A DNA stretch of 64,000 bases from a candidate division WOR-3 bacterium (lineage in GTDB: Bacteria; Hydrothermota; Tepidihabitantia; Tepidihabitantales; CAIPLT01): contig JBDRUV010000001.1 in NCBI GenBank assembly GCA_039801505.1, forward strand, positions 1 through 64,000, in the 5' to 3' direction. Made by a program: the position numbers and the translations under genes. Of this stretch, positions 35,455-40,780 are shown piece after piece (the stretch's first letter is position 1; each line of letters begins with the position of its first letter). The notes below the pieces were generated by a model. The model made no database searches and was not told where the DNA came from. It was given only the letters and a program-made list of their open reading frames with translations.

Positions 35455-35466
35455 AAGGAGGTGGGT

Positions 35467-37797
35467 ATGAAGCGACTCTTAGTGCTGCTTATCCCAGTAG
35501 TTCTCTTTGGTCAATGGCTGGAAACGACAATTCCAATCCCGGACTTAGTATATGGGGTTCAAAATCCGGAAGCAATTGTTAAAAATTCCTTAAACAATAG
35601 GATTTACCTCGGCGGCACTGACTGTATCATGGCCATCGATGCCAGTTCTTTTCAAAAAATCGGGCGCATCCCAATTACTGGTAAGATTAAAACCATGTGT
35701 TTTAATCCCGCCAATAATAAAATTTATGCCGGTGATGTCGCCAATAATAGTATTCTAGTCATCGACGGTCAGTCGGATTCTATTATTGCGACAATTGCTA
35801 CCGATAGTTCACCTGAGATTTTAATCTATAATCCAACTACTAACAAAATATATTGCGCGAACATTGAAAGCAATAAAATTACCGTAATTAGCGGTGCCAC
35901 CAATCAAGTAATCGCGACGATTTCTGCAGGTAATCTTCCGGTGGCCTTACTTATAAATCCCGTAACTAATATGCTATATTGTGCAAATTATAATGACAGC
36001 ACCATCTCAGTTATTAATACTCTCAATGACTCGCTTGTAACATTAATTCCGGTCCGAAGTGGCCCGAGGGCTCTGGTTTGTAATTTAACTAATAATAAGA
36101 TTTACTGTGCTAATTTTCATGGTAATTCAGTTTCCGTAATTGATGGTGCAACTAATCAAGTAATTGCCAATGTTGTGGTAAATAGACCTTATTGTTTGGT
36201 CTGGAATTCGCTGAACAATAAAATTTACTGCAGCTCATCCAGCGGAATTACTGTAATCGATGGCGTCACCAACGAAATAACTTCAACTATTATACTCAGC
36301 GCCCGGCCCAATTGTATGGTTCATAACCCGGTTAATAATAAGATCTATGCAATTATCGGTGACGAAGTAATAATTATTGATTGTGCAGCTAATCAAATCA
36401 TTACCAACATCCATTTAGAAAGTTATCTGAGTGCTTTATTATGGGACGAGACTAATAATAAAGTATACTGTGTAAATCAAGCTCGACATAATATAACTAT
36501 TATTGACGGCACAACCAACCAAAAGATTAAAACGATCCAAGTTGGTGATTTTCCGATAGCCCTTGTGTATAACAACGCCAACAATAAAGTTTATTGTGCC
36601 AATTTTTACGCCCGCAGCCTTACTGTTATCGATGGTGCTACTAATAACATTATAACCACAATACCCACAAACCACGAACCAGCTGCTCTGTGTTATAATC
36701 CAATTACCAATGAAATCTATTGTGCAAATTGTGACGCTAATAATCTCACCGTGTATAATGGGGCAACTAATGAGCTGGTCGCGACAATTGCCACCGGAGA
36801 ATGGCCCTGTGCCTTAATTTGTAATCCCTTTAATAATAAGATTTATTGTGCTAATTTTTCTAGTAATAGTGTAAGCATCATCGACGGCCATACCCACATG
36901 CTATCGAAAACCATCAATGTTGGAGCTGGTCCGTATCTTTTCAGTCATAACCTGATTAACAATAAAATCTATTGCGGTAATCGAATTGATTATACCTTAT
37001 CGATTATTGATGCCAATAATGATAGCCTGATGATTAACTATCCAATTTGGTTTGAAGTAAAAGACCTGGCTTATAATTCTGTTAACAATAAAATCTATTG
37101 CGCCGACAATTGCGGTGGCAATGTAATCTTAGTGTTTGACGGCGTTACTAATAATTTGATTAATGTGCTTCCGGCCGGCATATTACCAGTGGCCTTAGTC
37201 TATAATCCAATTAACAATAAACTTTATTGTGCTAATTATACTTCGAATAATATTACGGTTTACGATTGCGCAACTGACGATTTAATAGCAACTATTTGGG
37301 ACGGTGTCGATAAACCCTGTGCCTTATTTTACAATCCAATTAATAATAAAGTATATTGCGCCAATTATGGTAGCAATAACTTAACAGTAATTGATGGCGC
37401 CTCTAATGAAGTTATAGTCGTAATCAATGTTGGTTTAGGTCCAAAGAGATTCGCTTTTAATCTAGCGCAAAACCGAGTCTATGTGGCCAATTATAAAAGT
37501 GGCACAATTTCAGTAATTCGTGACCTAATGGCCGACATTAGAGAAACTACGTCACTAGTCAATAAGCCAGAGCTAAAACTTCAAGTCTTTCCCAATCCGG
37601 CCTCGGACGATTTTGTGGTGCATTTATCTCAAACCCCAACAAAAGTTAGAATATTCGATGTTGCGGGCACATTAATTAAAGAACTCCCAATTACCAGTTC
37701 TCAAATTAAGGTTTCCACTAAGGGAATAAAAAATGGCATCTATTTTATAAAACCCGATCAAAGCCCAGAGGTGATAAAGATTACTATTACAAAGTAA
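35467..37797 (+). CDS. Secreted YVTN-type beta-propeller protein with a cysteine ladder
   Basis: Start at ATG 35467, 5 nt after AAGGAGG; the GTG at 35461 overlaps the ribosome site. The 776 residues have a signal peptide (MKRLLVLLIPVVLFG), about 16 YVTN/NHL-like repeats of about 43 residues (roughly 40-690), and a T9SS-type C-terminal domain (FPNPASDDFVVHL, GIYFIKPDQ). Each repeat follows the pattern NNKIYCANY...ITVIDGATN...IATI. Cys follows the Tyr in 12 of 16 repeats, which is unusual for an exported protein. No CxxCH haem motif is present. Possibly two propellers in tandem, surface-attached; ligand unknown. It lies directly upstream of the two predicted selenoprotein genes. Confidence 0.85.
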   Translation: MKRLLVLLIPVVLFGQWLETTIPIPDLVYGVQNPEAIVKNSLNNRIYLGGTDCIMAIDASSFQKIGRIPITGKIKTMCFNPANNKIYAGDVANNSILVIDGQSDSIIATIATDSSPEILIYNPTTNKIYCANIESNKITVISGATNQVIATISAGNLPVALLINPVTNMLYCANYNDSTISVINTLNDSLVTLIPVRSGPRALVCNLTNNKIYCANFHGNSVSVIDGATNQVIANVVVNRPYCLVWNSLNNKIYCSSSSGITVIDGVTNEITSTIILSARPNCMVHNPVNNKIYAIIGDEVIIIDCAANQIITNIHLESYLSALLWDETNNKVYCVNQARHNITIIDGTTNQKIKTIQVGDFPIALVYNNANNKVYCANFYARSLTVIDGATNNIITTIPTNHEPAALCYNPITNEIYCANCDANNLTVYNGATNELVATIATGEWPCALICNPFNNKIYCANFSSNSVSIIDGHTHMLSKTINVGAGPYLFSHNLINNKIYCGNRIDYTLSIIDANNDSLMINYPIWFEVKDLAYNSVNNKIYCADNCGGNVILVFDGVTNNLINVLPAGILPVALVYNPINNKLYCANYTSNNITVYDCATDDLIATIWDGVDKPCALFYNPINNKVYCANYGSNNLTVIDGASNEVIVVINVGLGPKRFAFNLAQNRVYVANYKSGTISVIRDLMADIRETTSLVNKPELKLQVFPNPASDDFVVHLSQTPTKVRIFDVAGTLIKELPITSSQIKVSTKGIKNGIYFIKPDQSPEVIKITITK

Positions 37798-37840: not shown

Positions 37841-38875
37841 ATGAAGCCATTAAAACTCGCGTTTGTTTTAATTTTTAGCAGTGCAATATCTTTAGCCTAT
37901 TGCGCAGCGCGTGTTGCGGTCTGCGAAGAACTTTACCAGGAGGGTTGAAGCTCTTGTAATCCGGCCAGTTGGACACTGGCCCAAATTTCCTATAATTACC
38001 CAGAACAAACCGCCTGTATTGAAATGCATATCTCGTCAGCATATCCATTATATTCGGCTAAAGCTCGTAACCGCATGCTTTATTTAAACCCCGGGACTAA
38101 TTATACCCCATGGCTTTTTCTGGATGGCACTTCGGCTGGCTCTAGTTATTCCAACTGGCAATCACTAATTCTGTCCCGGGCTGCAGTACCAGCCCCGATT
38201 GTTGCTCGGATGTGGGGCAGTTATAATCCCCAAACCCGAACCGGTACCGTCTATGCTTGGTTTTGGTCCGAAACCACTGCTACATTACAAGTTCGCGTGT
38301 TATTTGTTATCACCGAAGATAGCATTTTCTATCAAGCGCCCAATGGCGACAACTTACATAATCATGTCGCCCGAGACTATATTCCCGACCACATTGGAAC
38401 CTTAGTTGAACTTCGACCTGGTGATACGATTACGGTAAGCTATCCGTTTAGTTTGGCCTCAAACTGGGTGATGGAAAAATGCGAGATTGTTGCTATTATT
38501 CAAAACTCGATAGCCATAAATAACGTTCGAGAAATCTTTCAAGGTGCCAAAATTAAGATCCGCGACCTACCAACCGCCGGGGTTGAAGAAGTGGTGGATT
38601 TCTCAAGAAGTTTTGTAAAACCACAATCTTCAATTATCAAATCAAATATTGCAGAGTTTCTGATAAATCTTCCCGCTAACACCAATTACATTTTGCAGGT
38701 AGTGAATGTTTCCGGTCAACCAATTATAAGTCACACAGGAGTTTCCCGGGGCAATGAAGAACTAATCCGATTAAATCTGCCGAAAAACTTAAGCAGCGGT
38801 CTTTATTTTTATCGGCTAGAATTAAATCCCAAATTTCCGCTTGACGTCCAAGGAAAGTTTATTATACTAAATTGA
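37841..38875 (+). CDS. Predicted secreted thioredoxin-like (Omp28-like) selenoprotein
   Basis: One reading frame of 344 residues interrupted by a single TGA at 37946-37948 (residue 36). Seen: ATG behind a promoter, a signal peptide (MKPLKLAFVLIFSSAISLA), then VCEELYQEG-U-SSC, aligning with the EEFTGxWCxxC redox motif of Omp28/thioredoxin-like exported proteins, with Sec in place of the first Cys (U36, C39). The frame stays coding through a PWLFLDG strand, an Omp28-like beta domain (VLFVITEDSI...NHVARDY) and a T9SS-type C-terminal domain (NLSSGLYFYRL). A hairpin with SECIS geometry follows the TGA. Gene callers would start it wrongly at 38024, losing signal and active site. Family knowledge: thiol-disulfide exchange in the envelope; partner unknown. 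Confidence 0.85.
37946..37981 (+). promoter_or_regulatory. In-frame UGA (Sec codon) and SECIS-like hairpin, first gene
   Basis: UGA at 37946-37948. After 14 nt, GGCCAGT (37963-37969) pairs perfectly with ACTGGCC (37975-37981) around the loop TGGAC (37970-37974). The loop starts 21 nt after the UGA and has G as its second base, both within the published bacterial SECIS rules (loop 16-37 nt from UGA; G in the first two loop bases). The stem is coding (ASWTLA). Confidence 0.82.
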
Positions 38876-38887
38876 AGCGGAGGTAGT

Positions 38888-40780
38888 ATGCGAAAAGTTG
38901 TACTACTTTTGGGATGTAGCATTTGGCTGCTTTGGGCTGGAAGACTCCTAACAAACGGTGATTTTGAACAGCCATTAAATATCAGTTGGTATAGTTCGAT
39001 TATCTCAGCCACCTCTTATGATACCATTGACCGACAAGCTTACTTTCATCCGGACCCGGATTATGAGGTGCGCGTAAAAAAATATGACGCAGTCTGTGCC
39101 AAGCTTTATCAGACAGTGCCCATTCCCACGACCGACCTAGACTTTTCGGTAAATGCCAAACTATATGCCTATGAATATAATCCTTCGGCATCCTATTGGG
39201 CAGCCGCGGCTGTTATTCTAAGATATCTTGATAGTAACAATAATCTCCTTGGCGAGACCAGAATTACCTATAAAACTCCTCATTCGCCTTGGATTAATAC
39301 ATCGACCATCCATCTCATCAATGCCCCAGACCCTAATAACTGGTATCAGTACAGTTTCAATCTAAATTCAGAACTCACTAATCTGCCTGGGGTCAATCCT
39401 TCGGCTATCCGGAAGATTCAAGTGGTATTAATGGATACCACAGACGGATGTTGAGCCGGCCATTGTGAGGCGAGGGTCCTCGCCGATGATGTTTCCCTTA
39501 ATTATAACGGTCCGAATCCTTATCTAAGTTTTCTACGGGCCAATGTGTATGATTCTTTAGGCAATAATAATAACCGCTTAGACCCCGGAGAAAGAGCGAA
39601 TCTTACCGTAGTTTTTAGAAATATTGGCGGTGTTAATTTTAATAATCTTTCTGCACAACTGTTCACCTCGGATCCTTATATTACGATAATCGATGGCAGT
39701 GCCAATTACGGGTCTCTGGCGATTGATAGCACCAGGGAAAATCTTTTTGATCCATTTACGGTTCAAGTAAGTCCAAGCTCTCCCTGTGGCCGCGCGGTGT
39801 TGTTTAAAATTATTGCTAGTGATTCTGGTTATTTAGATACCTTCGAATTCTCGTTGACCGTCGGTCCTTATCACTATCTTGTCTGGAATCCAGACCCAAC
39901 TCCTTCCTCTGGGCAGATCATTCATAACACCTTAAGAAATCTAGGCTATACAGGTACAATCACAACCGAGCTCTTAACTGAACCGCTAGATCTTTACCAG
40001 TCGCTGTTTATTACCCTTGGGATTTATCCTAATAATTATCGGATTCCGGCCAATAGTCAAGAAGCTTTAGCAATTGTTAATTACTTAAATAACGGCGGAC
40101 GGGTGTACTTAGAGGGGGGTGATGCCTGGTATTATGACCCCCAGGTCGGTGGTCATAATTTCAATAGCTTATTTGGGCTTACTGGGATAAGCGATGGCAG
40201 TGGTGATTTAGGGCCGGTCCTAGGTTTTGCTAATACCTTTACCCAGAGTATGTATTTTAATTATTCCGGGGAAAACAACTATATCGATCGCATTAATGCC
40301 ACAAATGGTTTTTTAATTTTTCGCGATGGTGATAATAGTTATAATTGCGGGGTTGCGTATAGTCCGGGCAATTACCGAACAGTTGGCCTTTCATTTGAAT
40401 TAGGTGGGTTGGTTGATGCCCAACCGCCCTCAACTAAAGCGGTACTTCTTGATTCTATAATGAGATTTTTTGGTATCACCCTAACCGCACTTACAGAAAC
40501 CCCAGAACCGGGATTTTTACAGACCCTAGAGTTGCTCTGTAGCCCTAATCCTTTTAGCACATTTACAAAAATTAAACTTCCTGATTCTAATATTTTAAGC
40601 CTAAAAATATACGATATCCAAGGTACTTTAGTTAAAGAAATCAGCCCATCTCCAGGAAACGATATCGTATGGACCGGTAAAGATCATAAAGGGAAAAAGC
40701 TTCCTTCTGGCGTCTACTTTATAATACCTACCGGGCCTACAGAATATAAGCCTGTGCGCGTGCTGTTAATCAAATATTAA
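38888..40780 (+). CDS. Predicted secreted selenoprotein with T9SS sorting domain
   Basis: One frame of 630 residues interrupted by a single TGA at 39452-39454 (residue 189). Seen: GGAGG ribosome site, signal peptide (MRKVVLLLGCSIWLLWA), a jelly-roll-like domain (about 20-200: LLTNGDFEQPLN, YWAAAAVILRYLD) that ends DGC-U-AGHC with Sec next to Cys188 and four residues before Cys193, a CARDB/Ig-like domain (about 220-315: NNNNRLDPGERANLTV), a glutaminase-fold-like region (about 320-525: IVNYLNNGGRVYLEGGD) and a T9SS C-terminal domain (LKIYDIQGTLVKE, SGVYFII). Ordinary annotation would report two genes (38888-39454 and 39545-40780). The 3' end overlaps convergent murJ by 11 bp. Confidence 0.85.
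39452..39484 (+). promoter_or_regulatory. In-frame UGA (Sec codon) and SECIS-like hairpin, second gene
   Basis: UGA at 39452-39454. GGCGAG (39469-39474) pairs perfectly with CTCGCC (39479-39484) around the tetraloop GGTC (39475-39478), which starts 20 nt after the UGA. GGUC is the loop of the E. coli fdhF SECIS minimal element bound by SelB. Confidence 0.87.

Follow-up and report, generated by a model that had tools for sequence, protein, structure and literature searches.

The gene at 38888-40780 of the 64,000-nucleotide stretch analysed here (the window; contig JBDRUV010000001.1 of a candidate division WOR-3 bacterium) very probably encodes a selenoprotein of a nearly selenocysteine-only and apparently undescribed family, for which we also propose an exported redox function; in this overall judgement the claim to a selenocysteine (Sec) family weighs most. 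Taken separately, comparison of homologous sequences makes it almost certain that residue 189 is Sec, and we lean, with more reserve, towards an exported redox role.

Reading frame, UGA codon and decoding machinery

The original prediction described a single frame running from 38888 to 40780, interrupted by one UGA (39452-39454) with no further stop and reading DGC-U-AGHC at the junction, and both the DNA and its translation bear this out. Automatic ORF calling splits the gene at this codon. The homologue in WOR-3 isolate SKYB20 (L016), 74% identical to the window protein in its best segment, shares both the UGA and the stem. UGA is a normal stop here, because ten of the eleven long ORFs of the window that end in TGA reach another stop within 16 codons; the eleventh stops at 38873, and its continuation is the frame of the selenoprotein gene itself. 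One other in-frame UGA of this kind was found nearby, in the gene directly upstream (37946-37948). A reassignment of UGA was considered and rejected, as the codon ends other genes of the window normally. The features of the locus are collected in Table 1.

Table 1. Predicted features of the selenoprotein gene and of the gene upstream of it, in window coordinates
Feature	Positions	Strand	Basis or remark
Omp28/thioredoxin-fold putative selenoprotein, G-U-S-S-C, UGA 37946-37948, T9SS tail	37841..38875	+	Adjoins the selenoprotein gene
SECIS-like stem-loop of the upstream gene, 7 bp: GGCCAGU / UGGAC / ACUGGCC	37963..37981	+	Loop 21 nt after UGA
Candidate Shine-Dalgarno GGAGG of the selenoprotein gene	38879-38883	+	
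Predicted selenoprotein coding sequence	38888..40780	+	630 residues, Sec at 189; homologues conserved on both sides of UGA
Sec-bearing CBM-like jelly-roll domain, residues about 20-213	38945..39526	+	AlphaFold2; Foldseek
In-frame UGA, almost certainly Sec189	39452..39454	+	UGA in 103/104 near-full-length homologous domains; Sec machinery in genome
Bacterial SECIS stem-loop, 6 bp, GGUC loop 39475-39478	39469..39484	+	Comparative tests; covariance model R1
Second region, residues about 225-540	39560..40507	+	Also in other large proteins without the Sec domain
C-terminal T9SS type A sorting domain, residues 553-612	40544..40723	+	TIGR04183 24.1 bits, cut-off 23

A genome without Sec machinery would speak against such a reading, and in this one SelA (546 bits), an adjoining SelB (348 bits), SelD (315 bits) and tRNA-Sec (77 bits) are all present. 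The selD gene (L154, G000:C1:144080-144988) has an in-frame UGA of its own in the motif CPG-U-ASK and seems to encode a selenoprotein itself, with a candidate SECIS that has an AGUU loop. Machinery and family also occur together across the phylum: SelB or tRNA-Sec was detected in 46 of the 50 genomes with the UGA family and in 16 of the 97 without it (147 genomes; p = 1e-19, with no correction for shared ancestry). The four family genomes in which neither was detected are MAGs that are 66-91% complete. In G067, G094 and G095 tRNA-Sec lies within a few kb of a family member, the order in G067 being selA, selB, tRNA-Sec, two jelly-roll members and two selenothioredoxin genes.

The hairpin downstream of the UGA

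The stem proposed originally, GGCGAG (39469-39474) paired with CUCGCC (39479-39484) around a GGUC loop that starts 20 nt after the UGA, is present as described, and its loop is the same as that of the E. coli fdhF SECIS. Folding of the single sequence gave no significance (z-score -0.5 to -0.8), and the SECIS was therefore settled by comparison across homologues. An Rfam search of the window returned no match; the covariance model R1 recovered positions 39469-39484 at 37.3 bits, with an E-value of 7.8e-8 in the whole genome and the next match at E 1.5.

Judged by this comparison of sequences, the hairpin is under selection as RNA. All six stem pairs are formed in 100 of the 103 UGA genes, where synonymous-codon shuffles give a mean of 11.7 and a maximum of 23 genes, and the GGUC loop occurs in 92 of the 103, with 18.9 expected from such shuffles. 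The valine codon that forms the loop is GUC in 93 cases and GUU in 11, whereas other conserved valine positions use all four codons. In the 61 distinct sequences 99.5% of the cells in the stem columns are paired, and pairing falls to 34-47% when the partner is slid by one column. Cells changed on both sides of the stem number 43, against 8.7 in shuffles; such covariation counts are inflated by related sequences, and the synonymous-shuffle and sliding controls depend less on independence. Because the hairpin sits in coding sequence, its compensations alter pairs of amino acids: the pairs forced by the stem are K-F (55), E-S (33), R-L (6), Q-C (1) and W-Y (1), and the peptides across the hairpin read AKVFA (GCGAAGGUCUUCGC), AEVSA (GCGGAGGUCUCCGC), ARVLA (GCGAGGGUCCUCGC), AQVCA and AWVYA. 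The mutual information between the paired amino acids is 0.74, while the permutation null reaches 0.16 at most. We regard this as an unusually clean case of an RNA hairpin within a gene forcing paired amino-acid changes, as in AKVFA, AEVSA and ARVLA.

A nearly Sec-only family, its fold and its neighbours

The homologues were collected from 147 genomes of the candidate division WOR-3 phylum and comprise 104 near-full-length N-terminal Sec domains, of which those aligned are 31-86% identical to the window domain. An alignment of homologues had been suggested as a check for Cys in place of U and for members with neither residue. Instead of the latter, UGA was found in the same loop of 103 domains and Cys in one, so that the column held and Cys replacement proved so rare that the family is nearly Sec-only. 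This sole Cys form (L101, G105:C1:2499902-2500714) has a weakened hairpin of five pairs, one of them G-U, with the loop AGUC. A profile search of the phylum genomes added further partial copies and no group of non-UGA relatives. Many species have several paralogues per genome, with strong expansions in G105 (about nine), G067 and G082 (at least five each). Outside the phylum, no relatives were found in plasmids or in 395 genomes from the phylum to which the Bacteroidetes locus belongs, the one other phylum sampled.

The AlphaFold2 model of the Sec domain is a jelly roll (pLDDT 95.2, pTM 0.91) in which the loop connecting the last two strands bears U189. Foldseek matched the model to CBM16 (2zex, TM 0.59 of target), CBM61 (2xom), CBM4 (1gui) and a phage tail-spike domain. 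At the level of profiles, CBM_4_9 gave weak matches in two of 45 members (best E 7e-4), none above the cut-off, and the window protein, like most members, has no Pfam match in the Sec domain. Members take three forms: long ones include the second region, short ones have the sorting tail but not that region, and in the third form the domain stands alone, at 187-225 residues, several of these proteins carrying lipoprotein-like signal peptides. The second region appears elsewhere without the Sec domain, in proteins of 900-1200 residues within the phylum and in a Bacteroidetes MAG protein (L017) that looks like a C25 peptidase or gingipain. The window protein begins with a signal-like segment, and its tail matches PF18962 at 20.5 bits, under the cut-off of 27 of that model. 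The proposal of an exported, T9SS-sorted jelly-roll selenoprotein finds support in the conserved UGA, the covarying SECIS, the Sec machinery, the jelly-roll model and the TIGR04183 match above its cut-off.

The gene directly upstream matches Pfam Omp28 at 44.8 bits (cut-off 34.9) and NF045500 at 41.3 bits, below the cut-off of 200. Plain ORF calling places its start at 38024, which is too late. The family to which it belongs occurs in 85 of the 147 genomes, in Sec and in Cys forms. An Omp28/thioredoxin-fold gene stands directly upstream of a jelly-roll member in 18 genomes; in the window and in the majority of these genomes its product is a UxxC selenoprotein. A YNCE/lactonase-like beta-propeller with a T9SS tail (window 35461-37797, + strand) adjoins the two selenoprotein genes. 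Downstream of the members in G085, G094 and G095 come genes for a thioredoxin-like lipoprotein, a TlpA-like redoxin and a DUF6029 outer-membrane protein; the lipoprotein has G-U-x-F-C in G085 (L148) and G094 (L147), and a polyferredoxin is encoded close to the cluster in G094 (L147) and G095 (L149). These clusters (L147, L148 and L149), which come with selenothioredoxins, have the appearance of a new exported redox pathway. The TlpA-like/polyferredoxin cluster is not beside the gene in its own genome, where MurJ, on the other strand, comes next.

Possible roles of the selenocysteine and relation to known systems

By the comparative evidence, SelB and Sec-tRNA decode the UGA as Sec189, with the GGUC-loop SECIS directing them. 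In the mechanism that we favour, T9SS would then export the protein and sort it to the cell surface. There, outside the cytoplasm, Sec189 might form a reversible selenenylsulfide with a nearby Cys (C188 or C193) and serve as a redox centre. The product of the adjoining upstream gene, the exported UxxC selenoprotein with the Omp28/thioredoxin fold, would be its likely partner, and in relatives the TlpA-like, outer-membrane and polyferredoxin genes of the cluster could supply electrons. The CUxxxC motif, described originally in this protein, does not hold as a family signature: it is present in 7 of 103 members, and the Sec is the only near-invariant residue. The residue before U is C in 57, G in 29, T in 10 and S in 4 of these members, and the residue after it is G in 74 and S in 16. 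One fixed partner Cys was sought and not found; alignment columns 105 and 136 and the position before U are candidate alternatives. None of the 103 UGA members lacks Cys at all three, where 7.8 would be expected by independence, shared ancestry not being corrected for. Because every UGA member keeps a Cys at one of these columns, a selenenylsulfide between Sec and a nearby Cys seems plausible for the family. Counting strands in the jelly roll did not place the candidate cysteines beside the Sec. Also counting against a redox role, CBM-like folds are to our knowledge binding folds and not known redox folds.

Since there is no fixed partner Cys and the fold is that of binding domains, it might be possible that the Sec, often beside a Cys, binds a soft metal, a metalloid or another ligand, with the jelly roll as the binding fold. 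Several paralogues per genome would fit a family of binders, and a connection with mercury or metals is known for many vicinal-CU selenoproteins (SaoL, HgcA and MbdU; table of PMC13188914). Still, we think this rather unlikely: a role in electron transfer is indicated by the kept adjacency to a UxxC thioredoxin-fold selenoprotein and by the clusters that include TlpA-like and polyferredoxin genes, and just over half of the members have the Cys beside the Sec. More improbable is that UGA and hairpin work mainly as a switch by which selenium determines whether a 188-residue or a full-length protein is made, and that little depends on the residue inserted. UGA recoding is generally inefficient, and a stop at the UGA leaves a nearly complete jelly roll, but this truncation loses the last strand together with the T9SS tail. 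Moreover, one member has Cys (L101), and lone-domain members (L115, L120, L121 and L124), in which little sequence follows and a switch gains little, retain the UGA as well. We give practically no credence to the idea that suppression or reassignment makes UGA read as tryptophan or some other standard residue: nothing specific favours it, although the residues flanking the UGA are atypical of any known Sec motif, and against it UGA ends other genes, no TGG form was seen at the Sec position among the homologues, the SECIS covaries, the family tracks SelB and tRNA-Sec, and the sole non-UGA member has Cys. An ordinary stop, in a pseudogene, a frameshift artefact or two adjacent genes, would agree with the split made by automatic ORF calling and is refuted by the dozens of genomes in which both halves are kept as one protein with the same single UGA.

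Returning to the Sec-dependent redox reading, we might tentatively extend it to a phylum-specific surface system for redox chemistry or capture, a picture that is possible and falls short of being probable. T9SS-exported lectin-like selenoproteins, several per cell in many species, would be kept reduced by co-encoded exported selenothioredoxins and would carry out thiol/selenol chemistry on an external substrate. If this were true, it would be, as far as we know, the first carbohydrate-binding-type fold to make use of Sec, with Cys as almost no substitute. With the family, two questions become testable: the function of Sec outside the cytoplasm, and the reason why Cys is unable to substitute for it.

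The original prediction recognised no described selenoprotein family in this protein, and we likewise found no match in Pfam, in NCBIfam or in the inventory of PMC13188914 (May 2026), whose 119 prokaryotic selenoprotein families and subfamilies include none with a Sec jelly-roll domain. Most of the prokaryotic selenoproteins catalogued so far adopt redox folds, thioredoxin-like or other; nearly all catalogued ones have many Cys relatives, and computational selenoprotein finders depend on such relatives (PMC12013277, PMC13188914). In the present family more than 100 members come from a single phylum; they combine a fold of the binding type with export signals and have hardly any Cys relatives. 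Finders based on Cys would tend to miss the family, and its genes are likely annotated as two truncated ORFs. In the literature searched we found no T9SS-tailed selenoprotein and no paper that treats selenoproteins together with Omp28 or with WOR-3; a groundwater-MAG study (Deng et al. 2026, cited in PMC13188914) could hold unvalidated candidates.

Among known systems, the SelB-dependent selenoproteins of the E. coli FdhF type share with the window protein the in-frame UGA, the stem-loop with its loop about 17-26 nt downstream, and SelA, SelB, SelD and tRNA-Sec. They differ in that no sequence or fold relation of the window protein to FdhF, or to any of the 119 inventoried families and subfamilies, was found and that Cys forms, which are usual though not obligatory for SelB-dependent selenoproteins, are almost absent from the family. 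The fold of the Sec domain is shared with CBM families 4/9, 16 and 61 and with galactose-binding-like jelly rolls, although most members have no Pfam match there, and we know of no CBM that carries Sec. Vicinal Cys-Sec proteins such as thioredoxin reductase with its GCUG tail, SaoL and HgcA likewise have adjacent Cys and Sec, usually followed by Gly, as do more than half of the members; the Sec of our family, however, is not in a C-terminal tail, the fold is another one, and many members have no such Cys. The Omp28-related selenoprotein NF045500 (hypothetical GOS_C) is a distant relative of the upstream gene, sharing UxxC and the thioredoxin/Omp28 fold, and is unrelated to the window protein. 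With T9SS type A cargo the window protein has in common an N-terminal signal-like segment and a C-terminal sorting domain (TIGR04183). In conclusion, the family is a selenoprotein family by mechanism and not a new kind of system; what makes it new among selenoproteins is the fold that it uses, how seldom Cys takes the place of Sec, and the number of its paralogues.
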